Shown here: in pieces, positions 43,162 through 60,069 of the stretch | Layout: each line of letters starts with the position of its first letter | Numbering within the stretch: the stretch's first letter is position 1 | Assembly (NCBI RefSeq): GCF_014695385.1 | Contig: NZ_JACJOD010000006.1 | Span: 124,001-188,000 of the forward strand | Reading direction: 5' to 3' | DNA: 64,000 nucleotides | From: Trichocoleus sp. FACHB-46 | Lineage (GTDB): Bacteria > Cyanobacteriota > Cyanobacteriia > FACHB-46 | Position numbers and translations under genes: made by a program | Notes under the pieces: generated by a model | What the model was told of the DNA's origin: nothing | The model's input: only the letters and a program-made list of their open reading frames with translations | Database searches by the model: none

Positions 43162-45591
43162 CTAGGACTCTGTATTGAATTCAGTCAGCACGCCATAGAT
43201 CGCCCAAATTGCCATCGCTCGCAAATAATGGCTCGCTCGGAACGTACCATTCGCAGTGATGGCTTCGGGTGTGCGGAATTGCAAACCATGAGTATAGATT
43301 TGCTGGACTACTGCCTCGGTGAGTTGGAATGCTTCAGCCTTCCTCTCCATCTGCAGCAAAAAAGCAGCGAGTCCGAAGTTAATTCCAGTCCAAACTTCCA
43401 ATGGATGGGTGGCTTGGGGGTTTTCGGGAGAGCCATCGGGTTTGACTCCATTGGCTGCTCCAAATTTCCCCTCAAAGAACTTCAGGAAGCAGGCTTCGTA
43501 GACGGTGTTTAAGGCTGAGCGGGCGCAGTCTAGAGGGACGACATCTGGCAAGCTGAGCAACCGCGCGTAGAACTGACCACAGAGTTGGTCGGCCATCACT
43601 ACATCCGAGCCACTTTCACTGTCGAGGCGGTAGTATTGACCATTCCAGAGTTTGGCTTGGTAGAGGGGACGTGCTTGAACCAGCCAAGTTTGATAAGTTG
43701 CGATCGCCGCTTCAATCTCCGCATTAGAGGTATCTGTGTGCTGATGAATCAAAATCTGGCCAATCGCGATCGCGGCTTCCAGGGCAGCGATCCATAAAGC
43801 ACCGCAATAAGCACTAATTCCCTGTAAGCGCCAATCATCAAAGGTTTGGTCGGGAGCACCGGAGTTTTCCGGGATGCCATCGCCATCAAGGTCAAAGGTT
43901 TTGAGATAAGCCAACGCAGCTACAACCGAGGGCCAACATTCTTCTAAGAACTGAATATCATTGGCTCCGGTTAGCAGGTAATCCCGGTAGACCTGCAAGA
44001 CAAAATCGGAGGGCAAATCTTTCCAGAGGTTGCAGTCTTGGTAGCTGGTGTAGTTGGTTTTCTCCCAGACATGCTCGTTTGGTGCGCCTAAATCGTGAGG
44101 AGTGGCGTTGGCAATTTTTCGTAATGCGGTAGGGCTTTCTGCGCCAATGGTGTAGTAGTAGCCAATCACACGAGTGCGATCGTCAGTGGCAGGAATAGCG
44201 CGGGCAAAAGCTCGGACCACAGATTTTTCTAGCCCTGGCCACAGCATCAGCAGCCCGAAGGAGCCATACAACCGCACATCTAAGCTTTCGTACCAGCGGT
44301 AGTCGATACACTCTAGAACTGCAAACTGGCCAATGGGGTCGCGATCGCTTGCCGCACTCCATAACGCTCCGCCATCCGTGAGGTCGTACAGCTCATTAAA
44401 CAGGGCCATCTTGAACCAGTCGGGCAAATCGGCTCGCTCTAGAATCGATTGCTGCCACGCTTGAATTTTGGCGTTCCAGTCTTCGTAGTGCTTGAGCGCT
44501 GTCCGAGCCATTGACCAAGCATTTTGCCCACTGCGACCAAAGAAATCGGTATAGCGGCGGTAGTACTCTACCCCAGCCGCAAATTCAGTAACGGGGAAGT
44601 CCCAGGCCAACACAAAGGGAATCTGGCGCGACTCACCTGGGGCAAGGGTAAACCGGATGGCGATCGCTGCGCCGACTTGCTCTCCTGCGGCAGCAGGAGT
44701 CTCGTCGCTACAGTCTGCCAAAGAACCATCTTGGGCAAAGGTCTGCCAAACGTCGGCTCCATCTCCCACAGAGTTCCAACGAGTGTGGTAAAACACTTCT
44801 GAGGTGTAAGGAGGTGCGAGAGAAGCGATCGCCCACTGGCCCTCTCCTTCCTGCGGGTTGGCGTTAGGGTCTCGCCCTGCTCGGTCTAACAAGCACCCCA
44901 CCCGATGACGATCCACCACCCATTGGTTAAAGTTACCTTGGCTATCGCTTAAGCGCGGCTGGTACTCATACACGGGACTGCCATCATCCCGCACCCGGAT
45001 ATCGGGTGACTTGTTGGCATTGGTAAACCAACCCACCATGTTTTGCCAGGTCAGCATGATGCTGAGAGTGATTGGTTGATCAGTGGGATTATGGGCAGTC
45101 CATTCAAAAACCGCGATCGGATAACTGGCTTCCTGGTAGTTGTGCGCCCATATTGGTGAGAACTGCTGGCAGGTTAATTCGGCTTGAAACACACCAGAAT
45201 AGACGAACCAACTTCTGGGATAGAGCGCGTGATAGGTGCCAGATTTTTGGGGGTACCATTGCCACTCGCTGAGGCTACCGTCTGTAGGGGGTTCGGTGCA
45301 GAGGGCGTAAGCTTGAGGAGTTGCTGTGCCAACTTGCTCGAAAACACTAAACTGGCAGGCTGAAATCGATTGAAAAACGTGTTCTCCGCCGTCGATGTGC
45401 CAGAGATTGAAGTCTCCCCGTGAGGAACGACCGATACACCCAGCCCCAAAGCCGCCTAAAGGCATGCCATGCCAGGGACCATCATCTAAATTGCTAGGGT
45501 AGCGAACGGTGTAAGGCTTGTCCCAACCTAGACCAATAGGCCGTTGCCAAGCACAAGCAGGAATTGCTGAAAGAGGATGCTGATTCGTCAT
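43162..45591 (-). CDS. GH116 beta-glucosidase (GBA2-like)
   Basis: An 809-residue enzyme related to human non-lysosomal glucosylceramidase. The N-terminal GBA2 beta-sandwich has PLGGFGAGCIGRSSRGDFNL. The C-terminal (alpha/alpha)6 barrel has DLDGDGIPENSGAPDQTFDD, which holds the acid/base Asp as in TxGH116, and QLCGQFYARLL further on. It would cleave beta-linked glucose from glycolipids or glycosides. No signal peptide is seen, so a cytoplasmic location is likely. Its place next to glycosyltransferase and acyl-transfer genes suggests a glycolipid substrate, which is inference. Confidence 0.92.
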   Translation of the reverse strand: MTNQHPLSAIPACAWQRPIGLGWDKPYTVRYPSNLDDGPWHGMPLGGFGAGCIGRSSRGDFNLWHIDGGEHVFQSISACQFSVFEQVGTATPQAYALCTEPPTDGSLSEWQWYPQKSGTYHALYPRSWFVYSGVFQAELTCQQFSPIWAHNYQEASYPIAVFEWTAHNPTDQPITLSIMLTWQNMVGWFTNANKSPDIRVRDDGSPVYEYQPRLSDSQGNFNQWVVDRHRVGCLLDRAGRDPNANPQEGEGQWAIASLAPPYTSEVFYHTRWNSVGDGADVWQTFAQDGSLADCSDETPAAAGEQVGAAIAIRFTLAPGESRQIPFVLAWDFPVTEFAAGVEYYRRYTDFFGRSGQNAWSMARTALKHYEDWNAKIQAWQQSILERADLPDWFKMALFNELYDLTDGGALWSAASDRDPIGQFAVLECIDYRWYESLDVRLYGSFGLLMLWPGLEKSVVRAFARAIPATDDRTRVIGYYYTIGAESPTALRKIANATPHDLGAPNEHVWEKTNYTSYQDCNLWKDLPSDFVLQVYRDYLLTGANDIQFLEECWPSVVAALAYLKTFDLDGDGIPENSGAPDQTFDDWRLQGISAYCGALWIAALEAAIAIGQILIHQHTDTSNAEIEAAIATYQTWLVQARPLYQAKLWNGQYYRLDSESGSDVVMADQLCGQFYARLLSLPDVVPLDCARSALNTVYEACFLKFFEGKFGAANGVKPDGSPENPQATHPLEVWTGINFGLAAFLLQMERKAEAFQLTEAVVQQIYTHGLQFRTPEAITANGTFRASHYLRAMAIWAIYGVLTEFNTES

Positions 45592-47306: not shown

Positions 47307-48956
47307 TTAAGCAACTGGAATGAACAGAGGCCGAAGATACAAGACTGTACTAACGATCGCGATTGCTACCACAACTCCCCATATCACCCATAAAACCCTA
47401 GCGATCGGTGCTAGCGTTGGCTGAGTATTGGCTTGCTGACTGAAACTAAAGGGCAGAAGGCTGATTACGTTATATTCCTTCAGATGATCACTGATTTTTG
47501 GGGGCAGTTGGCTTGGACAGCGATTGGAAATAGAGCTATTGGCTAAGCAGGCAACATTGATCATCCGCTGCCCTAGACGGAACTGGAGGCGTGAGCCTGG
47601 TGCGCCTACTAGGGTCTGGGTTTCCTCCATTTGTCTGGGCATTGCCACTGAAGTGAGTTGAATTGCGATCGCTAAAACAATCAAACCCCGCATTACCCAA
47701 GCGGTGAGTCTTCGGCTATGCAGTAACCGTTGAATAAAGAGGGCGAGCAGAGGAATCAGCAAGAGATGGACGGAGGTGACGTGGTATCTCGCTCCCCAAG
47801 CCGCATCTCCATGCCAAAACACAAAGCGACTGTAGGCCAAGAGATGCAACCCTAAGTTGATTACGCCAGCGACCAAGTAAAACTTGATAAATGGATGCAA
47901 TTTTCGCCAAAGCAACACTCCCAGAACTATGCAGGGGATGAGGAGGGGGTCATAGAGAAAAATGCTTTTAGCGGGAGAGAACAGCGCTCCCAAAATACCG
48001 ATGGAGGGATGATTGATTAACGGATAATTAGCTGGTAAATCTGGCAAGCCCTGCCATAAAGGATCGGTCGTGAGTTGTTGTTGCTCGACAAATTTACCAG
48101 TCGCCCAAAAGTTACCATACCGCCAGTAGTCTAGAATGCGGCTCAGCAGGGCTAAGGGTAAAAAGCCCACAAACCAGAGGCAGACAGCTTGTGCAGTTTT
48201 AGCAGGATTACGGCTTTGGTAAAACTCACAACTGGCTAAAAAGAGTAAGACGGTGACGACGTGTAAGGTGCTGGTAGAGCGAATCAGTAAGGCTGCGCCT
48301 AAAGCTAGACCACTCAGAAGCACAAAGTAACGTTGTCGATGGTGTATGTAAGCCAAAGCAGCAGCGTATCCGAGCGTCACCAATAGTAACAACTGATTGT
48401 TATGTTGCGGGATTTGGGCGTAATGCAACATTGTTGTCGTGAGGAAAAGCGTGGCACTGGTCAGTCCAGCAACTTGGTCGTCAAAGTTAAACAGACGCAG
48501 CAGCCAGAAACAGGCCACAACGGTAGCGGCATTCAGGGGAATAAAGATCAGAAAGTTAACGGCTAAGGTGCGCCATTGCCAGGAAGCGACCGCAGGAAAG
48601 AGCCGATGCAGTTGTGTGCCAACCCAGTCTCCGGGCAACATCAACATTGACTGCCCCACTTCATAGGCGATATACCGCTTTCCACCTGTGCCCATGACGC
48701 CAAAACGGATATCTCCTCTGACTTTGGGCGTCATGTCAGGCGTGATAATAACTTCTTCCGTTCCGGTCCACCAAGCATGAGCCATTTGTAGCCGCAAATC
48801 TGTGTCTAGCCCTATCGTGTCTGAGGTGACAGCGATCGCCCAGAGCGAAGTGATCAGCGCGATCGTCAGGATGGTCTTGACGGCAGTTTTTCCAGCCAAT
48901 CTTGGTGGCGTATCTTTGGCCTTAGTGAGCTTGCCGAGTGGGCTGAGCCGTTGCAT
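47307..48956 (-). CDS. GT-C-like multi-pass membrane protein
   Basis: A 549-residue protein with a cytoplasmic N-terminus, about 11 helices and a short tail. The first loop has DTIGLDTDLRLQMAHAWWTG, and GKRYIAYEVGQSMLMLPGDW follows; both fit a GT-C fold with acidic catalytic residues. GGAG lies 9 bases before the ATG. It probably works on lipid-linked sugars together with the GT2 enzyme 114 bases upstream. The donor and acceptor are unknown. Confidence 0.75.
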   Translation of the reverse strand: MQRLSPLGKLTKAKDTPPRLAGKTAVKTILTIALITSLWAIAVTSDTIGLDTDLRLQMAHAWWTGTEEVIITPDMTPKVRGDIRFGVMGTGGKRYIAYEVGQSMLMLPGDWVGTQLHRLFPAVASWQWRTLAVNFLIFIPLNAATVVACFWLLRLFNFDDQVAGLTSATLFLTTTMLHYAQIPQHNNQLLLLVTLGYAAALAYIHHRQRYFVLLSGLALGAALLIRSTSTLHVVTVLLFLASCEFYQSRNPAKTAQAVCLWFVGFLPLALLSRILDYWRYGNFWATGKFVEQQQLTTDPLWQGLPDLPANYPLINHPSIGILGALFSPAKSIFLYDPLLIPCIVLGVLLWRKLHPFIKFYLVAGVINLGLHLLAYSRFVFWHGDAAWGARYHVTSVHLLLIPLLALFIQRLLHSRRLTAWVMRGLIVLAIAIQLTSVAMPRQMEETQTLVGAPGSRLQFRLGQRMINVACLANSSISNRCPSQLPPKISDHLKEYNVISLLPFSFSQQANTQPTLAPIARVLWVIWGVVVAIAIVSTVLYLRPLFIPVA

Positions 48957-49070: not shown

Positions 49071-50057
49071 TTACTGATGGATCAACTCAGAGGTGCCTGG
49101 GGCTGGATAGGATAAATAAACCATGCGCTTGGCTTCCCGTCGTCCTCTTGCTACGGAGTCCAAGACCATGCCACAGGTCAGGCTCAGAAAAGCCAGCAGC
49201 ATAACTGAGGCGGAGAGGATGGCTGTCGGAAATCGCGGCACTAATCCTGTGGACAAGTAGGTGCTCACAATTGGCACACTCAAACTAATAGAAGTGAGGG
49301 CTAAAAGGAGAAAAATCAGACTGAAGAATAGGAGCGGTCGTATCTCCTTAAACAGCAGCAAAGCGGTCCCGACAATCCGCCAACCATCACTAAAAGTTTT
49401 CAGCTTGCTGGTAGAACCGGGCGGCCGAGATTTATACCAGGTCGGTTCTTCCGCAAAAGGCATTTTTAGTTCTAGGGCGTGAACTGTAAACTCGGTTTCA
49501 ATTTCAAAGCCATTGGATAGTGCCGGGAAGGATTTGACAAACCGCCGCGAGAAAACCCGATATCCCGAAAGCATGTCGGAAAATCGAGCACCGAATAGCA
49601 TCCGGACAAAATAGGTCAACATCAGATTGCCACCACGATGCCCGAGCCGATAGGCGGCTAGTTCGCTAGGGGTACTCCGGCGCATGCCCACCACCATATC
49701 TAATTGATGCTCCAGTAAGCGAGCAACGAGATGCCTGACGGCTCCAGCTTCGTAGGTGTTGTCGCCATCTACGATCACATAGATGTCGGCTTCAATGTCA
49801 GCAAACATCCGCCGCACTACATTGCCTTTGCCAGGAATCGGCTCATAACGCACGATCGCGCCTGCTGCATCTGCGATCGCGGCTGTATCATCTACTGAGC
49901 GATTATCGTAGACGTAGATTTTGGCTTCTGGCATCGCGGTTTGGAAATCCGCAACCACTTGGGCGATCGTCAACGCTTCGTTATGACAAGGAACTAAGAC
50001 CGCCACACTAGATGTCAGGCGAGCTGTGGGCTGAATGGTAGGAAACTGTTGCAGCAT
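49071..50057 (-). CDS. GT2 glycosyltransferase, DPM1-like, with C-terminal membrane anchor
   Basis: A 328-residue enzyme. VLVPCHNEALTIAQVVADF opens the GT-A fold. IYVYDNRSVDDTAAIADAA, IVDGDNTYEAGAVRHLVARL (DxD-like DGD) and MLSGYRVFSRRFVKSFP follow, as in dolichyl/polyprenyl-phosphate sugar transferases. Two C-terminal helices (about 245-265 and 280-305) anchor it. It would load a sugar onto a polyprenyl phosphate for the GT-C proteins encoded downstream. AAGGA lies about 9 bases before the ATG. Confidence 0.9.
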   Translation of the reverse strand: MLQQFPTIQPTARLTSSVAVLVPCHNEALTIAQVVADFQTAMPEAKIYVYDNRSVDDTAAIADAAGAIVRYEPIPGKGNVVRRMFADIEADIYVIVDGDNTYEAGAVRHLVARLLEHQLDMVVGMRRSTPSELAAYRLGHRGGNLMLTYFVRMLFGARFSDMLSGYRVFSRRFVKSFPALSNGFEIETEFTVHALELKMPFAEEPTWYKSRPPGSTSKLKTFSDGWRIVGTALLLFKEIRPLLFFSLIFLLLALTSISLSVPIVSTYLSTGLVPRFPTAILSASVMLLAFLSLTCGMVLDSVARGRREAKRMVYLSYPAPGTSELIHQ

Positions 50058-50093: not shown

Positions 50094-51911
50094 CTACGAA
50101 CAGGACTGTTGCCAAGTTGTTTTTTGATCCACTGGCTGGGTTTGGCCACGAGGAACGGTTTTCTCGTTTATAAAGTGGATTTCAAAGTTTTTTAGTTGCT
50201 TCAGCCCTTGATGGCGGCCATTCCAACGACGACAGAGATACTCGCCATAGTAGGGATATAGTTTCTTGCCGATACCTCGATTCAGGTTAATGAAATAGGT
50301 ACGCCATTGCATGTTGTGATAGATGGCGTTGCGCGTCTGCACAGTCGGTTTTTCATAAGAAACAGCGCTGCCATCTTTAAGCAAATCAACTTGTGTGCCA
50401 TCAGCAAGCTGACCGGGAATCACATACCAACCATCGTCTCTAGGAGGAGAAGGCGCAAAGATACTCCACGATTGATCGAGACGAGTGACGCGGCTAATCC
50501 AATCTACAGAGTTGAGCGTTCTCCGGTTAAAGACTTCGGGAGCAAAGCTGCGTAGATTCCAGATAAAGGTATAGGCAAACAGCAGTAGCGTAATTAGATT
50601 CAAGGGACGAGGCGATCGCACCTCTATCGGGCGGAACTTGAGGGGTTTGGTAAACTTCCCAGCCGTGCGGCGATTGGAAGCAACGGTCTCGTAGAATTTA
50701 GTGCCAACTGACATCACAGGCCGCCAGCGCAGCACCGGAGTCAAGAACTTGAATACAGGAGATAGAGAGCAAATATAGGCGATCGCTTCAAACTTATAAT
50801 GTCTGCGTTCTTGCCAATCGACGACCACCCAGGAATTGTAGGTTTGCATATCTGCAAAGATGGTGGGATCTTCCTGTGCCATCAGTAAGGGGATATTGGG
50901 TAACAGGAGAAAGGTGCGGAGGAGATGGACTACTTTCTTGCAGAAGCCACATTCGCTGTCGTAATAGATCCGCAATCCTGCTCGTTCTGGCGTGTACAGG
51001 CGTTTGCCCCAACTGTCCCAAACCTCACTGGGGATGAACACTAACCAGCAAAAAACACTTAAAACTGGAAAGATGCCGATCTGAAGACTGAGACCAAAAC
51101 CGATGTGCAGCGAGATAAACGTGAGAATGGTAGCGCAGCGGAACCAAGTCGTGCGGAACGGCACGAAGAGAAATAAAGGCCCAATCCACTCCAGCCAGAG
51201 TGTGCTTAAGGTAAAAAAAGTGAGTAAAGGTGGGAACTTGAGCAGAAATTGACCAAAATGAGTTGCATACTGGTCAAAGCTCAAAGCATAGTAAACTGCG
51301 TTTCCTTGCGGCCACCAAATCGGGCTAGTGGTTTTGAAAGCGGCGGAAAACCAGTAGACAAAGCAGATTTGTAAGGTGAGCGCCAGAGTTGCCCCAGATA
51401 GTACCCGTTTGGGTAGCGGTTTAGGAGAAGTGTTGAGGGCGCGCTCAATGGAGTAGTAGGCTCCCAGCGGTAGAAACATGCACCAAAATAACAGCGCTCG
51501 CAACACATCATCAGCCGCGAAGATTAGCGCTGGATTGCGGTTATGGAGGGAGACGACCAAGGCCCAAGAGGCGATCGCGGCAAGGCGAGTTTGGTAGCCT
51601 ACCAAGAGCGCTAAAGCCATACCGCCAGCAATAAGGAAAATCAACGCTTGCACGAGGGGTTGACCGCTGATGGCATGAATGGACCAATAGCCTGGTTTCC
51701 ACAATTCCTCTGTTAAGAGCGATCGCGGCAACACACCTGCATCGGTGTAGTGAGCTACTAGATCTCCCGAACGAATGAACAAATCTGTGAGCAGCAGTAG
51801 GGCGATGCCGATGCGAAAGAGAGCCAAGGAACGTAGGTCTAAGCCAAACAGTTCTTCTAGCTTGCTCCTAGTTTTGATTAAAGATTTAGATTTTTGCGCC
51901 TCAGCCACCAT
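50094..51911 (-). CDS. HTTM-DCC fusion membrane protein
   Basis: A 605-residue protein. Residues 15-320 are an HTTM domain (horizontally transferred transmembrane, related to vitamin K-dependent gamma-carboxylase): LRSLALFRIGIALLLLTDLF and ADDVLRALLFWCMFLPLG. Residues 325-430 form a DCC/DUF393 thioredoxin-like domain with IYYDSECGFCKKVVHLLRTF (CxxC). A C-terminal domain includes WSIFAPSPPRDDGWYVIPG. Redox or carboxylase-like chemistry at the membrane is possible, but no reaction is established for bacterial members. GAGG lies 7 bases before the ATG. Confidence 0.88.
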   Translation of the reverse strand: MVAEAQKSKSLIKTRSKLEELFGLDLRSLALFRIGIALLLLTDLFIRSGDLVAHYTDAGVLPRSLLTEELWKPGYWSIHAISGQPLVQALIFLIAGGMALALLVGYQTRLAAIASWALVVSLHNRNPALIFAADDVLRALLFWCMFLPLGAYYSIERALNTSPKPLPKRVLSGATLALTLQICFVYWFSAAFKTTSPIWWPQGNAVYYALSFDQYATHFGQFLLKFPPLLTFFTLSTLWLEWIGPLFLFVPFRTTWFRCATILTFISLHIGFGLSLQIGIFPVLSVFCWLVFIPSEVWDSWGKRLYTPERAGLRIYYDSECGFCKKVVHLLRTFLLLPNIPLLMAQEDPTIFADMQTYNSWVVVDWQERRHYKFEAIAYICSLSPVFKFLTPVLRWRPVMSVGTKFYETVASNRRTAGKFTKPLKFRPIEVRSPRPLNLITLLLFAYTFIWNLRSFAPEVFNRRTLNSVDWISRVTRLDQSWSIFAPSPPRDDGWYVIPGQLADGTQVDLLKDGSAVSYEKPTVQTRNAIYHNMQWRTYFINLNRGIGKKLYPYYGEYLCRRWNGRHQGLKQLKNFEIHFINEKTVPRGQTQPVDQKTTWQQSCS

Positions 51912-51969: not shown

Positions 51970-53310
51970 TTAGTAGGGCAAACGTCGGGGATAGTGAGCC
52001 ACCGTTCTTCGCGATCGCCTGGTTAATCGCTGCCAAGCTTGGCGCACAGGCTGTCGGGTTGGGGTGGGCAACCAGCGCAGGAGACCACTCGCCAGCCAAT
52101 GCCCCATGACTCGCAAACGATGGCGCAGCGTTGGCATGCGCTGGAGATAAATCCAATGGCGCATTACACAGGCGATCGCACCTTGTAAGGTAAGACCAAA
52201 GCTACAGACCACAGCGGCGTTGGTACCCAGCGTTAACATCTCTCCTAAATGGAGATAGCGAAAGGAAAGCAGTGGCTTCTCTGTGATTACAGCGCGGAGA
52301 TTACGAGCAGCACAACTGGCTTGTTGGTAAGCGGCTTGAGCAGTCGCCGGAACCAGTTGTCTTCCCGCATCTTGAATCGCGGCTAAATCTCCCAGAGCAA
52401 ATACCTCTGGATGATCTACAAGTTGCAGTGTGGGTAACGTCAGCAGTTGCCCTTGAGCGTTTTGTTGGCAAGGGAGATTCCGGACCCAATCAAGCGTTTG
52501 GGTGCCAGCAGTCCACAGCACTAAATCTGTATCTATCGTGTGGGTTTGTTTTTGCTGGGTTAACGTGATGTGGTTGGATGCGATCGCCTCAATGCCAGTT
52601 TCTAGCTCAACCTGTATCCCTCTCTGCCGTAAGGCTTTGTAAGCGGCTGCTCGACTAGCACCTGAAAAAGTTTTGAGGATGCGATCGCCCCGCTCAATCA
52701 GCCGCACTTGACCTCTACTCGTGAGGCGATCGGCTAGTTTACAAGCAAGTTCTACCCCGTTTGGTCCACCGCCGATGACAGCGACTCGAATTTGGTGTTG
52801 CCTGGACGCTTCTAGAAACCGCAATCTCTCTTTCAAATGCACAGCATCTGCCAAGGAGCGAAAGGGAGAAGCATGTTCTACAGCGCCAGGGATGCTACCT
52901 AAGCAAGTTTCTCCGCCTACCGCCAAAACTAGATAATCATAGGTGAGAGAGTCACCATTACAGAGATAAACATAACGAGCTGTTAAATCAATGCTAGAAA
53001 CGGCTTCCTGGCAAAATTCAACCTTGTTATGCGCCAGCAGTTGTCGATAGGTCGGTGCAATTTCCCAAGCCTGTAGTTCACCTGTCACCAATTCATAAAG
53101 CAGCGGCGTAAATAGAAAATGATCTTTCGGTTCAACCAGAGTGATTTGATAGTTTTTTAACTGCGATCCTAGGGTGCGCTGCAAATATAAGGCTGTATAG
53201 AGTCCCCCAAATCCTCCTCCCAAAATACAAATTTGTACCGGACCTCGACCCGGACGTAAAACGGAAGGGGTTTCAGGTTGATCTGCAAGCCTATTTTTTT
53301 TGCAGTACAT
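51970..53310 (-). CDS. Type II NAD(P)H dehydrogenase, NdbB-like
   Basis: About 446 residues. ICILGGGFGGLYTALYLQRT is the FAD-binding motif, VAVIGGGPNGVELACKLADR binds NAD(P)H, and VFALGDLAAIQDAGRQLVPA is the second FAD site. The C-terminus is a basic amphipathic membrane-binding region. Cyanobacterial NdbB (Slr1743) reduces demethylphylloquinone, and other NDH-2 enzymes feed quinones. I chose the ATG at 53310 (GGTGG before it) over the TTG five codons earlier. Whether it serves the acyl pathway or only happens to lie within the block is unclear. Confidence 0.85.
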   Translation of the reverse strand: MYCKKNRLADQPETPSVLRPGRGPVQICILGGGFGGLYTALYLQRTLGSQLKNYQITLVEPKDHFLFTPLLYELVTGELQAWEIAPTYRQLLAHNKVEFCQEAVSSIDLTARYVYLCNGDSLTYDYLVLAVGGETCLGSIPGAVEHASPFRSLADAVHLKERLRFLEASRQHQIRVAVIGGGPNGVELACKLADRLTSRGQVRLIERGDRILKTFSGASRAAAYKALRQRGIQVELETGIEAIASNHITLTQQKQTHTIDTDLVLWTAGTQTLDWVRNLPCQQNAQGQLLTLPTLQLVDHPEVFALGDLAAIQDAGRQLVPATAQAAYQQASCAARNLRAVITEKPLLSFRYLHLGEMLTLGTNAAVVCSFGLTLQGAIACVMRHWIYLQRMPTLRHRLRVMGHWLASGLLRWLPTPTRQPVRQAWQRLTRRSRRTVAHYPRRLPY

Positions 53311-53396
53311 TATCTTTTCCACCAATAGGGTTAGCAGCGCTGACAGCCTGAGGGAGCAGAACGGATTACTCTTAGCTCTGTTGCAAAGGGCGATCG

Positions 53397-54359
53397 CTAT
53401 TGCGAAGGTTGATTGATCGGTGATGATGCAATTTGATCTCCCATCACTTGCTTAAATTGTTGGGCTAGCTCGACCGAGCGTATTCTTCTAGCAGGTTGAT
53501 TGAGGTGGTAATGGGTATCGGCAAAAAAGCTAGAGTCTGTTTTGAGATTGAAGGAAGTTGGATCGTGAAGCAGCGGTGCGATCGCCGCTAACTTAGTTGC
53601 TGTTTTCTGCACATTCTCAATCGTCTGTGGGTCATCACTGGCATAGAGCCAAGGTAGTCCCAAGACTAAAGTGGCTCCTTTGGCTTCTACTTCTTGGCGA
53701 AACTGCACAATTCGTTGGTAGGCGTAGTCGGAAATGGGAGCCTTAATTTTCATCTGCCACCACTTAGACTTGGTGCGCTGCTTCAATACCGTGGGGTCGC
53801 CATTCTGGGTAATAGGGTCGGAGTAGTAACCTGTCAGCTTGCCTTTCTCCACCACATCTAGAGAGGATTTGGTCAAAGCTCGCAAAGTTGGGGCTCCCAC
53901 CATCAACGTGTCTTGAGCCAGTTGCTGAGTAGGAATCCTGCCTAGCCCAGGCTTGCCGATCGCGATGCCAAACTGCCCAGAGCGATCGCCAAAGCCATCC
54001 TCATCTAACAGCAGTAGATATTCAGGGATCAGCAGCACCACATCTCCGGGCCGAATCTTATCCTTGACGCTGGGGAGAATCACATCTAAACCAATTGGGC
54101 CATCCAAGCCCAAGTTCAGCACAGGTCTCCCTAACTCTTGCTGCATCACCCCAGCATCAACCGTGTAGTGTGCCCCAGAGCCACCTAAGATCAAGACTCG
54201 TTTGGATTCCTGAACTTGATCAGCTAGTGCCATCTTTTGCTCATACATGATGCGTAGCCAGCTCAGTTCACCGCCATAGCGGGCGTTGTAGATGTAGCCA
54301 GCCGTCCAGGCTAAACCTGCGATCGCAACCCAACTAGTGAGGTTCAGAAGTTTCCGCAT
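53397..54359 (-). CDS. SGNH hydrolase-like (DltD/AlgX-type) O-acylation partner
   Basis: A 320-residue protein with an N-terminal signal anchor (LTSWVAIAGLAWTAGYIY), so it lies outside the membrane. VLILGGSGAHYTVDAGVMQQ puts the nucleophile at S61, and FFADTHYHLNQPARRIRSVE holds the Asp/His pair, as in DltD and alginate O-acetylation proteins. The start overlaps the MBOAT stop by one base (TAATG), so the two are translationally coupled. It would take an acyl group passed by the MBOAT and place it on an envelope acceptor. Confidence 0.85.
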   Translation of the reverse strand: MRKLLNLTSWVAIAGLAWTAGYIYNARYGGELSWLRIMYEQKMALADQVQESKRVLILGGSGAHYTVDAGVMQQELGRPVLNLGLDGPIGLDVILPSVKDKIRPGDVVLLIPEYLLLLDEDGFGDRSGQFGIAIGKPGLGRIPTQQLAQDTLMVGAPTLRALTKSSLDVVEKGKLTGYYSDPITQNGDPTVLKQRTKSKWWQMKIKAPISDYAYQRIVQFRQEVEAKGATLVLGLPWLYASDDPQTIENVQKTATKLAAIAPLLHDPTSFNLKTDSSFFADTHYHLNQPARRIRSVELAQQFKQVMGDQIASSPINQPSQ

Positions 54360-55822
54360 TAGAACTCAAAGTAGATAAACTGCGAGGGAGTATTGGCAGC
54401 CAGTAGAACCGTCAAAGCGAGTAAGGCTCGTGAGACCCAAGGAGAAGTGAGCAAGTCATATTCAGACTCACGTTTTTGCCAAACCGCTATATGTTCAAGT
54501 AACAACACTAAAGTTGCGAGTCCCAGGGTTAAGGCCAAGACGGTGGCTTCATTACCGCTGAAAGAACTAAAAGCACTGCCAATGTTGGCAAAAGAGTACG
54601 CTCCTGGACTGACCAGAGTTTGTAACTTGGTGGCTAAACGATGCACATTGGTCTCCATGAAAAACAGACATCCCAAGATGACTGAGCCAAAGGTCAAGAT
54701 CCAGGAAATGAACTGAGGCATGAACAACCGCTGACCGACAAAGCTGTAAAAAGGCCGCCCCGCATAGCGCAGGACTAACAGCAGTAGACCGTGATAAGCA
54801 CCCCAAAGGATAAAGTTCCAGGCGGCACCGTGCCAAAATCCCGAGAGAGTAAAAGTCAGAAACAAAAAGAAAGGTGCCCACTGTTTCCTAGAACCCATCA
54901 GGGGTAGAAACACATAATCTCGGAACCAAGTGCTAAGAGTGACATGCCAGCGTCGCCAGAATTCGTTAATGCTTTGGGAGGTATAAGGAGCTAGGAAATT
55001 GGTAGTGAGCTTGACTCCTACAAACTTGGCCAGACCCAAGGCCATAAAGCTGTAGCCAGCGAAGTCAAAATAAATCCTTAAAGTAAAGAGATAAGCCGAA
55101 AACCAGACTAGCCAAGCATTACCTGTCTCTTCTAGGTCGATATAGGGAGAGATGTTATCGGCAAGGACAAATTTCATGAATAGGCCCAGGGAGAGCCAAC
55201 GTAGACCTGCCTCAAAGTTATCCAGCGTGAATTTAAAGCGAAACGCTTCAATTTGGGGGAAGAAATCGGCTCGGCGTTCAATCGGACCTGCAACAACTTG
55301 GGGAAAGAAGGAGACAAAGTTGACATAATCAACGATTCCAATGGGGCGCTTCTTCTTGCTGGTAAAAGAGTCAACCACAAAGGCAACCATCTGAAAGGTA
55401 TAGAAGGAGAGACCCGGTGGAATCGCTCCCATGCCTGGGATTCCACCTTGCGCCTGCCAACTAGTAGCAACCCCCGGTAATAGCAGCCCTAGGACATCCT
55501 CTACAAAGAAGTTGAGGTACTTGAAGTAAGCAAGGATGGCAATATCGATCGCGACTAAGCTAGTGGCAATCATCTTGGCTTCCCATCCTTGGCGACGCAG
55601 CATCAGCCGTACCAGGATGTAGTTAAAAATAAGTTCGCAGGCAAAGATGATAAAGCTAGAGCGCGAGGCATTGACAAACAGGAACAATGACATCGCCGCT
55701 AAGCCAACACTGTCAAAAGAACCTCGCCAGAGGTTGAAGTATTGGCCAATCCAGCGAACCGTGAAAAAAGGAATACTAAAGAGTAGTAATACCCACCAGA
55801 AGGAGAACTCTGAGAAGTTCAA
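54359..55822 (-). CDS. MBOAT-family O-acyltransferase (AlgI/DltB-like)
   Basis: A 487-residue protein with about 11 membrane helices. FVSFFPQVVAGPIERRADFF and NEFWRRWHVTLSTWFRDYVF are AlgI/DltB hallmarks. The catalytic His lies in LSGFWHGAAWNFILWGAYHG. The start is TTG with a strong GGGGAGG 9 bases before it. MBOATs move acyl groups across the membrane onto hydroxyls. Here the donor is probably the acyl carrier protein encoded 144 bases upstream, and the acceptor is unknown. Confidence 0.93.
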   Translation of the reverse strand: MNFSEFSFWWVLLLFSIPFFTVRWIGQYFNLWRGSFDSVGLAAMSLFLFVNASRSSFIIFACELIFNYILVRLMLRRQGWEAKMIATSLVAIDIAILAYFKYLNFFVEDVLGLLLPGVATSWQAQGGIPGMGAIPPGLSFYTFQMVAFVVDSFTSKKKRPIGIVDYVNFVSFFPQVVAGPIERRADFFPQIEAFRFKFTLDNFEAGLRWLSLGLFMKFVLADNISPYIDLEETGNAWLVWFSAYLFTLRIYFDFAGYSFMALGLAKFVGVKLTTNFLAPYTSQSINEFWRRWHVTLSTWFRDYVFLPLMGSRKQWAPFFLFLTFTLSGFWHGAAWNFILWGAYHGLLLLVLRYAGRPFYSFVGQRLFMPQFISWILTFGSVILGCLFFMETNVHRLATKLQTLVSPGAYSFANIGSAFSSFSGNEATVLALTLGLATLVLLLEHIAVWQKRESEYDLLTSPWVSRALLALTVLLAANTPSQFIYFEF

Positions 55823-55966
55823 TTAACCCATCCTCCCCAAGCTGCAATTCATCCGTTCCAAACCTTGACCAAGCTTGATTCAGAGATTGATCAGTAGAAT
55901 CTGAGAGAGCCTTAAAAATCCCGCTTGGTTTACATCAGCCACACATTTAGGCTCTCGAGTTGTCAA

Positions 55967-56398
55967 CTAGCTACCACTAATGCGGTTCCACAAGCCACCC
56001 CAACCAGAAGCTTTCTCTGCCTTCTCTGCGGGAGCATTGAGGGCTGGCTCAGCTTTAGCGCCGCTCAGTGCGGCAGCAATGTCAAACTCTTGCACTAAGA
56101 AGTTTGCGGCCTTCTCAACCGTGGGGTAATCCCACAAGAGAGTAGAAGGAAGTTCTAGCTCAAGCCAGTCTTCTAGCTCTCCTACCAGAGTTACTGCATC
56201 AATAGAGTCGAGACCATAACGAGTAAGCGGCTCTTGCACCTTAATGTTTTTGGGATCAAGAGATAGCTGCTTGGCCAATTGGCTGACTAGCCACTGTTGA
56301 ATCGCTTCAGTTGGAGAAGTCTCGATCGCCTGACTGCTGCCTGAATCAATTGGGCTCAAAACTTCGCTAGGCTTGTAGCTGGAGTTCTGAAGTTGCAT
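55967..56398 (-). CDS. Acyl carrier protein with C-terminal tail
   Basis: A 143-residue protein. The carrier domain (about 30-105) has the phosphopantetheine site S65 in YGLDSIDAVTLVGELEDWL. Residues 110-143 are an Ala/Glu-rich linker ending in GWGGLWNRISGS, which could be a membrane- or partner-docking peptide not found on ordinary AcpP. The start overlaps the dehydrogenase gene by 32 bases and has AAGGGG before it. It would carry the acyl chain activated by the ligase. Confidence 0.9.
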   Translation of the reverse strand: MQLQNSSYKPSEVLSPIDSGSSQAIETSPTEAIQQWLVSQLAKQLSLDPKNIKVQEPLTRYGLDSIDAVTLVGELEDWLELELPSTLLWDYPTVEKAANFLVQEFDIAAALSGAKAEPALNAPAEKAEKASGWGGLWNRISGS

Positions 56399-58175
56399 TG
56401 GTTTGATCCCCTTGTACTTTTGATGTTGCTAACTGAAAAGGAACAATAGAGAAGAGTTTGTCTTCTTGGTAGAGCCGTAATAGCTCCTGAGCGATCGCTT
56501 CGTCGTTAATCCGAGAAGCAAGACTGTGAGCAGGGCGGAACTTCAGCGCCAAGCGTCTGAGACAAAGCGCTAGCCATTCTCCCTGGGCAAAAAAGGCACC
56601 TAAATGGTGGCGGTTGTGGAGCCACATATGGATGCAAGCTGCGGCTGCATGTAAAGTGCAGTACTGCTTAGCCAGGTCAAATAACTCTGGCGATTGGTCG
56701 TGCCCAAATTCAAAGGTGGAATGTTCTAGGCTGTGATCGAGGGCATTGAGTTCTTCGAGCAGCAGATGGGTGAAGCTCACGATTTGCTCTAATACCGCTG
56801 GATTGAGATCAGGATCTGCTTCCAGGGTTTGCAGTTGCGCTAGTGTTAGCTCCAAGCCTTGCAAGACATCATCCGCGCCACGGCTGAATAGCTCCAATTT
56901 GCGACCGTCAAAGGTGGGGACTGACTGCTCTAAGGAGAAGCAATCGGCTAGGCGAGCTTGCAGCGCTTCTAAGTTTTTACCGCGTTGGCGCGATCGCTGT
57001 TTTGCCAATTGGCGTAATTGCAGCAGCAGGGCATGTAAGTTCACGACCGTACTGCCGTCAAAGACGCTAATGATGGCGTTGTCTCTCACCACTTTTTGGA
57101 AGATACCCCAATCATGGGCATCCCGCATGTAGTAGCGTGCCCCCAGCACCACCGAAACATCCGCTACCATGCTCTCTAGCTGCGTCGTGACAAAGTATTT
57201 CACGACTGCTGACCAAACGCTAAACTGCTCAGGCACCACATGGAACCCTCTAGCGGCACCGATAGTGGCGCAATCGCAGATCAAAATATCTAGAAAAGCA
57301 TCCACCAGAGTTCGCCGAGGCTGCGGCATGTCAAAAACTGTTTTGCCATACAGCTGGCGGTTCAGAGCGAAGTTGAGTGTGGTTCTCAACGCAGTATCTG
57401 CGGCTCCTTGGGAGAAAGCGGCGCAGAGAGCCCGAGTCACCTGAAATCCTTTCAATGCCCACTCTAGGCCCGCTCCTTCGGCCCCGATGAGGCTGGATTC
57501 TGGGATAAAGCAGTCCTTGAAACCAATACCGCTCATGTCAGAACCACGAATGCCGTGGGTCAGGAGCTTGGGCAGGTTGTAGTAGGAGTTGGGATCGAGT
57601 TGTTTTTTCTCCACCATGAAGAGCGATAAGCTCCGGGCTCCCCCTGACTCATCGGTTTTAGCCAAGACAAAGGAGACACCAGAGATAGTCGCTCGGTTAA
57701 TCGGCCACTTTTCTCCATTCAGGAGATAGCCGCCTGGAACCTTGGTGGCTTGCACATCACTCCCTACCAAGTCGCTGCCATGCGCTCGTTCTGAGTAAGC
57801 GAGGCACATCGCGCCATTGTGGTCTTTGATAAAGCTAGCTAACCGTTGCTTTTGTTCCTCAGTGCCTGCCATCCAAACCAGATAAGACCAGAACAAGGTA
57901 GTGAAGCTAATGGAGGTCGTGAGATCCCGTCGAGACATGACGCGAACGAACGCGACAAACTCCTCAAAAGAGGTGAACTCGCCGCTGCATTCGGTTGGGA
58001 TGTAGTAATGATTGAGTTTCCAGTTGTAGAGCCAGTTGAGCAGAGCTTCAGGAAATTCTTCTTGCTCGTCTAGCGCTACAACCTGTTGAAAAGACATCAC
58101 GCTATCTGGATTGCCAGGATCTCCGAGATCTCGTTCCAGGGCTTCCGCGACCCAGTATTGTTTGAGTGAATGCAT
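56367..58175 (-). CDS. Acyl-CoA-dehydrogenase-like flavoprotein, probably acyl-ACP specific
   Basis: About 602 residues. MHSLKQYWVAEALERDLGDP is preceded by AAGGAG at 6 bases; a longer frame from 58277 lacks such a signal. LAYSERAHGSDLVGSDVQAT and YLLNGEKWPINRAT are the family FAD/substrate motifs. RDNAIISVFDGSTVVNLHAL aligns with the catalytic-base region (YEGT in MCAD) but has Asp where Glu is usual. About 200 extra C-terminal residues are helical. Lying between a fatty acyl-AMP ligase and an ACP, it probably desaturates the ACP-bound chain, as TamT does in tambjamine synthesis. Confidence 0.88.
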   Translation of the reverse strand: MHSLKQYWVAEALERDLGDPGNPDSVMSFQQVVALDEQEEFPEALLNWLYNWKLNHYYIPTECSGEFTSFEEFVAFVRVMSRRDLTTSISFTTLFWSYLVWMAGTEEQKQRLASFIKDHNGAMCLAYSERAHGSDLVGSDVQATKVPGGYLLNGEKWPINRATISGVSFVLAKTDESGGARSLSLFMVEKKQLDPNSYYNLPKLLTHGIRGSDMSGIGFKDCFIPESSLIGAEGAGLEWALKGFQVTRALCAAFSQGAADTALRTTLNFALNRQLYGKTVFDMPQPRRTLVDAFLDILICDCATIGAARGFHVVPEQFSVWSAVVKYFVTTQLESMVADVSVVLGARYYMRDAHDWGIFQKVVRDNAIISVFDGSTVVNLHALLLQLRQLAKQRSRQRGKNLEALQARLADCFSLEQSVPTFDGRKLELFSRGADDVLQGLELTLAQLQTLEADPDLNPAVLEQIVSFTHLLLEELNALDHSLEHSTFEFGHDQSPELFDLAKQYCTLHAAAACIHMWLHNRHHLGAFFAQGEWLALCLRRLALKFRPAHSLASRINDEAIAQELLRLYQEDKLFSIVPFQLATSKVQGDQTNATSELQLQA

Positions 58176-58236
58176 GACATTCTCCTTGGAGCGATCGCAA
58201 TGTGAGCAGAGGCTACAATAGAGCCGTAGCCAGGGT

Positions 58237-60069
58237 TTAGTGAGTGGTTTGAATGCGCTGAAGGAGAGAGTTGACATCTCCTTGCAAATGGCGGAAGTTA
58301 GACCGAATTTGGGGATTCTCGCTCCAGTCTGCTAAGACTTCTAGTTCTCCAGCCAAGAAGCTAGACCGACAAGCTTGGCGCTGAATCTTGCCACTGGAAG
58401 TTTTGAGGATATTGCCTGGTTTAACGAGGACAACCACATAAACTTGCAGCTCATGTTGCTCAGCGATCGCCTGTCGAATCTCACTGATCACCTCATCGAC
58501 ATCTAGGTTTTGAGCTTGCCGCTCGACTTCTTGCACCACCACGAGTCGTTCTTCTCCCTCAAGCTCGACAGAGAAGGCTGCACCATAGTCAGGGCGCAGA
58601 GCTGGGCTCACTTCCTGCACTGTCCACTCAATGTCTTGGGGATAGTGATTCGTGCCTCGGATGATGATCAGGTCTTTGATCCGACCTGTGATAAATAACT
58701 CCCCATCTTGCATGAACCCTAAGTCGCCGGTGCGGAGGAAGGGGCCTTCTCCAGTATCCTGCAAGTAAGCTTGGAAGGTCGTTTTGGTTTCTTCGGGACG
58801 TTGCCAGTAGCCTTGAGCGACACCGGGATCTGCTACCCAGATTTCGCCGACTTCGTCTGCTGCACAACGAGTTAGGGTTGGGGAGTTGGCGATCGCCACT
58901 TGAGTCTCACAGACTAAACGCCCACAACTGGCGATCGTCCGGACCCCTTCTGTTTGGGTCGGCGGTGCCAGCACGATGCGATTTTTCTCGATCGCGGCAG
59001 CCTCAACCGTACAGATGACAGGCGAAGTGCGGACGGGGCTGGTAGAGACAAGCAAAGTGGCTTCGGCTAGTCCGTAAGCGGGCGCAAACGCATGCCACTG
59101 AAAACCGCAAGGAGAAAATGTTTCATAAAAGCTTTCCATGACCCTCGGGTTAATCGGTTCGGCAGCGTTGCCTGCTCCTTGCCAACTGCTGAGGTCTAGC
59201 GTTTCTAGTTGAGCGGGAGTGACTCGCCGGACACATTGGTCGTAGGCAAAGTTGGGGCCTTGGCTATGGGTGGCTCTATAACGTGAGATAGCTTGCAACC
59301 ATCGGACGGGCTGTTTAATAAAGGCAAACGGCGACATCACATAACAAGGCGTGCCGTTGTAGAGCGGCTGAGTTAACCCTTCCACCAAACCGTAATCATG
59401 GAAGTAAGGCATCCAAGTGACGGTCACACTCTCCGGGGTATATCCACAAGCTCTTTGCAGATATGCGGAGTGAAACATGAGATTCTTGTGGCTGATCATC
59501 ACCCCTTTGGGTGTAGAAGTCGAGCCAGAAGTATATTGCAGATAAGCCAACGTGTTGCTGTTCACGTTGGGGTCTTGCCACTGCTCTGCTAAGGTGAGAT
59601 CTACCTGCTCGGTGTCGATCCACCGCATACTTTGAAACTCAGGAAATTCCAATCCTGCATTGGCCAAGATATCGAAGATACGACTGGTGGTTAGCACCAC
59701 CGAAGCTTGAGCATCTTTGACGATCGCTCGTAACCGAGGTAGCGTTCGCTTCAGACGACTGCCATCTGGAGGCGGTACCGGGATGGCAATTATGCCTGCG
59801 TAGAGACACCCACAAAAAGCTGCGATCACGTCTAAGCCTTGAGGATAGAGCAGTAAAGCTCGTTCTCCCTGAGCTTGGTGCTGTTGTAGTAATGCTCCGA
59901 TCGCACGGGCTTGACGATCCAGTTCGGCATAGGTAAGGGTAGGTCCTGCCGTTTTGCCATCAACCAAAAATGTGTAAGCGTGGCCTTCGGGCTGCTGCTG
60001 CGATCGCCAACGCAATAACTCGATTAGTGTAGAAAACTCAACGATGGGTTGAGAAAGACATTGGGTCAT
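58237..60069 (-). CDS. Fatty acyl-AMP ligase
   Basis: A 610-residue adenylating enzyme that activates a fatty acid and loads it on a carrier protein. The ATP loop is QYTSGSTSTPKGV (about 178). FAAL-type motifs follow: FHDYGLVEGLTQPLYNG, AYGLAEATLLVS, LRTGDLGFMQDGELFITGR and KDLIIIRGTNHYPQDIEWTV. It has no CoA-binding features. The ATG at 60069 has GGAG 9 bases before it and is preferred to the TTG five codons earlier. It is the first gene of the acyl cassette, 61 bases before the dehydrogenase. Confidence 0.94.
   Translation of the reverse strand: MTQCLSQPIVEFSTLIELLRWRSQQQPEGHAYTFLVDGKTAGPTLTYAELDRQARAIGALLQQHQAQGERALLLYPQGLDVIAAFCGCLYAGIIAIPVPPPDGSRLKRTLPRLRAIVKDAQASVVLTTSRIFDILANAGLEFPEFQSMRWIDTEQVDLTLAEQWQDPNVNSNTLAYLQYTSGSTSTPKGVMISHKNLMFHSAYLQRACGYTPESVTVTWMPYFHDYGLVEGLTQPLYNGTPCYVMSPFAFIKQPVRWLQAISRYRATHSQGPNFAYDQCVRRVTPAQLETLDLSSWQGAGNAAEPINPRVMESFYETFSPCGFQWHAFAPAYGLAEATLLVSTSPVRTSPVICTVEAAAIEKNRIVLAPPTQTEGVRTIASCGRLVCETQVAIANSPTLTRCAADEVGEIWVADPGVAQGYWQRPEETKTTFQAYLQDTGEGPFLRTGDLGFMQDGELFITGRIKDLIIIRGTNHYPQDIEWTVQEVSPALRPDYGAAFSVELEGEERLVVVQEVERQAQNLDVDEVISEIRQAIAEQHELQVYVVVLVKPGNILKTSSGKIQRQACRSSFLAGELEVLADWSENPQIRSNFRHLQGDVNSLLQRIQTTH

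Follow-up and report, generated by a model that had tools for sequence, protein, structure and literature searches.

The window analysed here (the whole stretch of 64,000 nucleotides, from a host genome of 6.56 Mb) contains a cassette of five genes on the minus strand at 53397-60069, in the transcription order FAAL, ACAD, ACP, MBOAT, and SGNH. Pfam and NCBIfam models confirmed FAAL, ACAD, ACP, and MBOAT, and the SGNH protein was recognized by its predicted fold, so that all five co-oriented genes of the original prediction are present with the domains named there. The insertion of a dehydrogenase between the ligase and the carrier likewise agrees with the gene order. The nearest related loci come from cyanobacteria. 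The features of the cassette and of the genes downstream of it are as follows.

58237-60069, minus strand: fatty acyl-AMP ligase (FAAL), 610 aa from the ATG at 60069; PF00501, with FAAL models and structures above CoA ligases
56367-58178, minus strand: acyl-CoA-dehydrogenase-like protein (ACAD), 603 aa from the ATG at 58178; three Acyl-CoA_dh domains
55967-56398, minus strand: stand-alone acyl carrier protein (ACP), 143 aa; PF00550, GLDSID
54359-55822, minus strand: MBOAT acyltransferase, 487 aa, TTG start after a GGGGAGG ribosome-binding-like stretch; PF03062, 91 bits
54362-54379, minus strand: FIYFEF, an FXYXXF acyl-shuttle motif formed by the six C-terminal residues of the MBOAT; Tyr484, codon 54371-54373
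53397-54359, minus strand: SGNH acyltransferase-like protein, 320 aa, with an N-terminal helix; predicted SGNH-hydrolase fold
51970-53325, minus strand: NDH-2-like flavoprotein (Pyr_redox_2), often present in addition (43 of 61 loci)
50094-51911, minus strand: membrane protein with a DCC1-like thiol-disulfide domain, often present in addition (37 of 61 loci)
49071-50057, minus strand: family-2 glycosyltransferase, AglJ-like, a companion of the cassette at 10 of the 61 loci
47307-48956, minus strand: putative glycosyltransferase with multiple membrane spans (PMT_2/LA_3751-like), a companion of the cassette at 9 of the 61 loci

The two tight joins noted earlier are both real and recur in relatives. 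The ACAD and ACP genes overlap by exactly 32 bases in the window, as they do in most relatives, and the MBOAT and SGNH genes share a TAATG that recurs in roughly half of the relatives. With the ACAD start placed at the ATG at 58178, which is the most likely one although the longest open reading frame begins at 58277, a gap of 58 bases lies between FAAL and ACAD.

Components of the five-gene cassette

The ligase scored 438-554 bits against FAAL-type models and far lower against CoA-ligase models. The solved structures closest to it are FAALs, the best being the polyketide-synthase FAAL 7r7e, with CoA ligases far below and the D-alanine ligase 3e7w ranking far under the FAAL structures. We take 7r7e to belong to an olefin synthase. 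The catalytic lysine, Lys561 (TSSGKIQR), is invariant in 26 aligned orthologs. By these sequence comparisons, the protein is a FAAL-family member and not a CoA ligase. The ACP is a dedicated carrier protein encoded inside the same gene cluster, as in Dlt-type systems, and its phosphopantetheine site, Ser65, is invariant in 41 of 41 sequences. Of the 61 loci, 10 have a phosphopantetheinyl transferase gene close to the cassette. A second FAAL of the window's own genome is found within a 1787-aa open reading frame that is PKS-like by size (L146, G000:C76, 3204-8567).

The ACAD consists of an acyl-CoA dehydrogenase core (approximately residues 1-395) and a helical C-terminal part, and its predicted structure matches the fold of acyl-CoA dehydrogenases with a best Z of 34.3 across 378 residues. 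The position of the catalytic Glu (YEGT) is occupied by Asp374 in FDGST (codon 57057-57059), which is invariant in 39 of 39 sequences. Furthermore, the electron-transfer flavoprotein ETF (PF01012) was absent from all 27 cassette genomes, while 10 of 14 control genomes were positive. Desaturation on the ACP, as originally proposed, is therefore unproven. Conservation in sequence nevertheless supports some role for the ACAD in the cassette, whatever its chemistry.

The MBOAT retains its catalytic His331 and a second histidine, His344, in 51 of 51 sequences, and Tyr484 of the C-terminal FIYFEF is equally invariant (51/51). Against the DltB equivalog TIGR04091, it scored 179.8 bits, below the 375-bit cut-off; the same model scores four other MBOATs at 140-182 bits, and the match is therefore at the level of the superfamily. 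We dropped it as a sign of a DltB-like donor, because every MBOAT tested matches. In both Dlt and Pat, the acyl group is first placed by the MBOAT on the invariant Tyr of an FXYXXF motif at a C terminus and is then received by the serine of the SGNH protein; the motif sits on the microprotein DltX in Dlt and on the MBOAT itself in PatA (PMC12148441). The shuttle motif links the present MBOAT-SGNH pair with the mechanism established for these two systems, which upholds the view that this part of the cassette acts in acyl transfer.

For the SGNH protein, no Pfam or NCBIfam match was obtained and a PDB sequence search gave no match; the fold search alone gave matches. Its AlphaFold model (mean pLDDT 91, from a 32-sequence alignment) adopts an SGNH-hydrolase fold, for which the catalytic domain of PatB (8tlb, Z 12.1) is tied with thioesterase I and GDSL esterases as the top matches. 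DltD was reached by Foldseek at E 0.0025-0.005 with a low TM of 0.40-0.44. Four residues are invariant, namely Ser61 in GGSGAHYT and Asp281, His283, and His285 in FADTHYHL. By its fold and these residues, the protein is an SGNH partner of the MBOAT with a conserved Ser and Asp/His, as in Pat/Alg-type pairs. Of the signal anchor attributed to it earlier, the N-terminal helix exists but is weakly hydrophobic, with a best Kyte-Doolittle 19-mer of 1.17.

Distribution and neighbourhood of the cassette

About 50 loci of cyanobacterial type were collected from one scan, with the MBOAT at 62-80% identity, and most of them keep the order FAAL-ACAD-ACP-MBOAT-SGNH-(NDH2)-(DCC). The repetition of the same gene order in dozens of cyanobacterial loci is far above chance. 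Cassette genes of cyanobacterial type also occur in metagenome-assembled genomes labelled Gracilibacteria and Chloroflexaceae (L024 and L052), probably through binning errors.

Co-occurrence was surveyed in 390 cyanobacterial genomes sampled from the class, as the original prediction had suggested, with orthologs defined by at least 60% identity for ACAD and at least 64% for MBOAT. ACAD and MBOAT orthologs were found in an identical set of 27 genomes. FAAL orthologs are present in 26 of these and in none of the other genomes at E 1e-255; in the 27th (G277), the cassette lies on a 15,519-base contig matching locus L019, whose FAAL is split in two. The SGNH protein is present in 27 of 27, and outside the cassette genomes only two distant copies (33-39%, one genus) appeared in a 281-genome sample. 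FAAL, ACAD, MBOAT, and SGNH thus occur together in the same 27 of 390 genomes, with the FAAL split in one. These genomes belong to many genera and several families, and both presence and absence are seen within single families; they are related by descent, and a formal chance figure for the co-occurrence overstates. In L019 and L147 (G277:C413), the FAAL is in two reading frames with the other cassette genes intact, which reflects a sequencing error or decay.

The genes are also retained where the cassette is broken up. One genome (G259) carries FAAL at 0.89 Mb, MBOAT-SGNH at 3.80 Mb, and ACAD-ACP at 3.96 Mb of a single contig, and in two others (G283 and G327) the ACAD-ACP-MBOAT genes stand apart from both FAAL and SGNH. 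Among genomes chosen for an MBOAT locus lacking FAAL or ACAD, 15 of 15 gave a match elsewhere in the genome. The Microcystis loci with MBOAT/SGNH and no FAAL-ACAD-ACP trio were considered as a counter-example and rejected, as the trio was found elsewhere in those genomes. Similarly, Okeania loci that lack the SGNH gene have it elsewhere in the genome; in one genome (G405), no SGNH was found at 1e-10. Since genes are kept even when megabases apart, as in the Microcystis type, the linkage is functional and not only physical. Collectively, these results support the five genes as one functional unit. The prediction would have been undermined by MBOAT/SGNH pairs occurring mostly alone, and at the ortholog level no pair lacking the trio was seen.

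A PKS or NRPS nearby would also have counted against the prediction, and none was seen in the flanks covered. By ORF size and the start of each sequence, no PKS/NRPS-like giant gene was detected in the flanks of about 50 loci (up to 10 kb on each side), and the ORF lists of the window contain no PKS- or NRPS-like gene. The reading of the cassette as a lipopeptide or polyketide starter unit was rejected on this ground.

The genes downstream of the window cassette, among them multi-span glycosyltransferase-like proteins, recur throughout the genus and partly outside it. The NDH-2-like flavoprotein (51970-53325) may serve the ACAD as its electron partner. For the DCC protein, a vitamin-K-carboxylase-like (HTTM) reading was dropped, as Pfam gave no match for it at a cut-off as loose as E 5. 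Near the glycosyltransferase block, the window encodes a GH116 beta-glucosidase-like enzyme (43162-45591). The glycosyltransferases, found in a minority of loci (10/61), suggest a glycan as the acceptor. Judging from the neighbouring genes, the acyl group is probably placed on a glycan or glycolipid outside the cell. The separate MBOAT and AlgX-like pairs, the sulfotransferase or FkbM methyltransferase genes at some loci, and the polysaccharide cluster around the nearest outside pair (G216) point indirectly to a glycan as well.

Several variations of the neighbourhood were observed. A second, separate MBOAT and AlgX-like pair lies next to the cassette in 13-14 loci, directly downstream in L009, L011, L013, L014, L017, L023, L026, L027, L034, L035, L047, and L049. 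In Okeania and Crocosphaera, sulfotransferase genes are inserted into the cassette or adjoin it (L027:11687-12607, L018, and L033:8138-9157). An FkbM-type methyltransferase adjoins the MBOAT in L043 (8867-9838) and in eight similar loci, which come from Microcystis, Chroococcus, Aphanothece, and others, and in which the cassette is split or rearranged.

A proposed carrier-fed route for the acyl group and its alternatives

We regard it as rather likely that the cassette encodes a carrier-fed transmembrane acylation pathway, in which a fatty acid is activated, loaded onto the ACP, altered by the ACAD, and transferred by MBOAT/SGNH to an outside acceptor. From its family, the FAAL would make an acyl-AMP from a fatty acid and load the phosphopantetheine of the dedicated ACP. 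The ACAD would then modify the chain on the ACP, in the simplest case by unsaturation, with O2 or the neighbouring flavoprotein as the electron sink; this is the weakest step. The MBOAT, through His331, would take the acyl group from the ACP and pass it across the membrane to its own Tyr484 in the C-terminal FIYFEF. Ser61 of the SGNH protein would accept it and pass it to a hydroxyl on the extracytoplasmic side, where a glycan or glycolipid is the probable acceptor. The parts with their invariant catalytic residues, the shuttle motif, and the functional coupling of the genes are observed here; the chemical steps are what we infer, as are the length of the chain, its unsaturation, and the nature of the acceptor. 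The strict co-occurrence suggests the ACP as the acyl donor of the MBOAT, and this putative hand-over is the most economical path because no acyltransferase other than the MBOAT belongs to the conserved core. The fuller proposal, that an envelope glycan receives an altered fatty acyl group via a dedicated ACP and an acyl-tyrosine, as a second carrier-fed MBOAT/SGNH pathway besides Dlt, is put forward tentatively, with chances just short of even.

The ACAD step has a variant that is compatible with this pathway, in which the enzyme does not desaturate and instead performs electron-neutral chemistry, as ACAD10/11 do, or acts as an O2-using oxidase. The invariant Asp374 and the missing ETF fit such an activity, as ACAD10 has an Asp at the equivalent position and works without an added electron acceptor (PMC11342911), and the prolyl-ACP oxidase AnaB shares the ACAD fold. 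On the other hand, FAAL-ACAD-ACP trios with known products yield unsaturated chains (PMC9113097), and the NDH-2-like neighbour of 43 of 61 loci could accept electrons, which leaves the variant a serious but doubtful possibility. The ACAD may thus desaturate its substrate with O2 or the NDH-2-like neighbour as the sink, or it may work in an electron-neutral manner.

The hand-over itself is disputed by an explanation in which two arms contribute to one product. Here the trio would make a lipid or lipidic building block through steps outside the core, the MBOAT/SGNH pair would separately acetylate this product, or the glycan that bears it, from acetyl-CoA, and the co-occurrence would reflect the shared end product without any transfer of the acyl group between them. 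PatA is an acetyl-CoA user, and the other MBOAT/SGNH pathways are said to take acyl-CoA (PMC12148441). Counting against the carrier-fed pathway itself, the FAAL/ACAD/ACP trios characterised so far feed NRPSs and not MBOATs (PMC9113097). The nearest MBOAT/SGNH pair outside the cassette (G216; L134, G216:C1, 7978-16236), whose MBOAT is 49% identical and ends in FIYFSF, sits in a Kdo-type/ABC-transporter polysaccharide cluster, with FAAL, ACAD, and ACP not beside it. A trio can also precede other enzymes, as seen in G375, where an aminotransferase-fold enzyme, an SDR, and a hydroxylase accompany it. Against this explanation, the conserved core holds no other acyl-accepting enzyme, the pair was not found without the trio at the ortholog level, and 13-14 loci already have the second MBOAT and AlgX-like pair, which is suited to acetylation. 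We therefore consider the two-arm explanation unlikely.

The related trio of G375 (L135, G375:C275, 6272-14110) comprises a FAAL at 49% identity, an ACAD at 49% with the same FDGST, and an ACP at 39%; the aminotransferase-fold enzyme and the SDR follow, and the fatty acid hydroxylase is just upstream. Such a layout is possibly one of sphingoid-base-like synthesis fed by FAAL/ACP in a cyanobacterium. The FAAL-ACAD-ACP trio looks like a feeder that can be coupled to differing acceptors, which in the cassette are MBOAT/SGNH.

Finally, removal of acyl groups by the SGNH protein, with the cassette as a lipid-turnover unit, could draw on thioesterase I and GDSL esterases as structural matches tied in Z with PatB, but the tight coupling of MBOAT and SGNH, the fused shuttle motif, and the PatB and DltD precedents make it very improbable.

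If the carrier-fed pathway is correct, the cassette would be a widespread exception that joins the FAAL/ACP loading of lipopeptides and polyketides with the acyl-Tyr transfer of wall acylation. A fatty-acylated envelope molecule would be expected in Nostoc, Anabaena, Microcystis, Okeania, and others, where it is directly searchable, and it would be a lipidated surface polymer not described before. The cassette also raises the question of how a fatty chain on a carrier protein is taken over and handed on by an MBOAT.

Relation to known systems

The open literature contained no paper that pairs "MBOAT" with "fatty acyl-AMP ligase" (subscription papers lay outside the search), and a 2025 review of FAALs does not mention MBOAT. 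The original remark that no characterised pathway has exactly this set holds for the literature searched. The combination is unusual because the other MBOAT/SGNH pathways have no carrier protein (PMC12148441).

Two systems resemble the ligase and carrier side. The starter units of the lipopeptides friulimicin, taromycin, and malacidin have the same order of FAAL, ACAD, and stand-alone ACP, with the ACAD between FAAL and ACP (PMC9113097), but the cassette is without an NRPS and its conserved downstream enzyme is the MBOAT/SGNH pair. The cassette FAAL is also related to cyanobacterial PKS FAALs such as that of olefin synthase, 7r7e being the nearest among solved structures. In contrast to these, the cassette encodes stand-alone proteins, with no ketosynthase or sulfotransferase-thioesterase.

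On the transfer side, the PatA/PatB pair of peptidoglycan O-acetylation and AlgI-type pairs share with the cassette an MBOAT with a C-terminal FXYXXF and a separate SGNH protein with an N-terminal helix. They differ in that they are described as drawing on acyl-CoA and lacking a carrier protein (PMC12148441), whereas FAAL, ACAD, and ACP are constant in the cassette.

The Dlt system of teichoic acid D-alanylation (DltA, DltC, DltB, DltX, and DltD) shares an adenylating ligase, a carrier, an MBOAT, an acyl-Tyr motif, and an SGNH partner with the cassette. However, the cassette has a FAAL in place of the D-Ala ligase, an ACP of PKS/NRPS type, an added ACAD, and a cyanobacterial host, and its shuttle motif is fused to an MBOAT that falls under the DltB cut-off. 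The Dlt parts list of the original prediction therefore stands as an analogy in its ligase/carrier/MBOAT/SGNH logic and fails in its details, as the DltB cut-off is missed and the DltX part is fused as in PatA. Membership in Dlt was rejected by this cut-off, the missing DltX, and the FAAL identity of the ligase. In conclusion, the cassette is a hybrid, Dlt-like in its proposed working, that combines a Dlt-like ligase and carrier with a Pat/Alg-like shuttle on the MBOAT.
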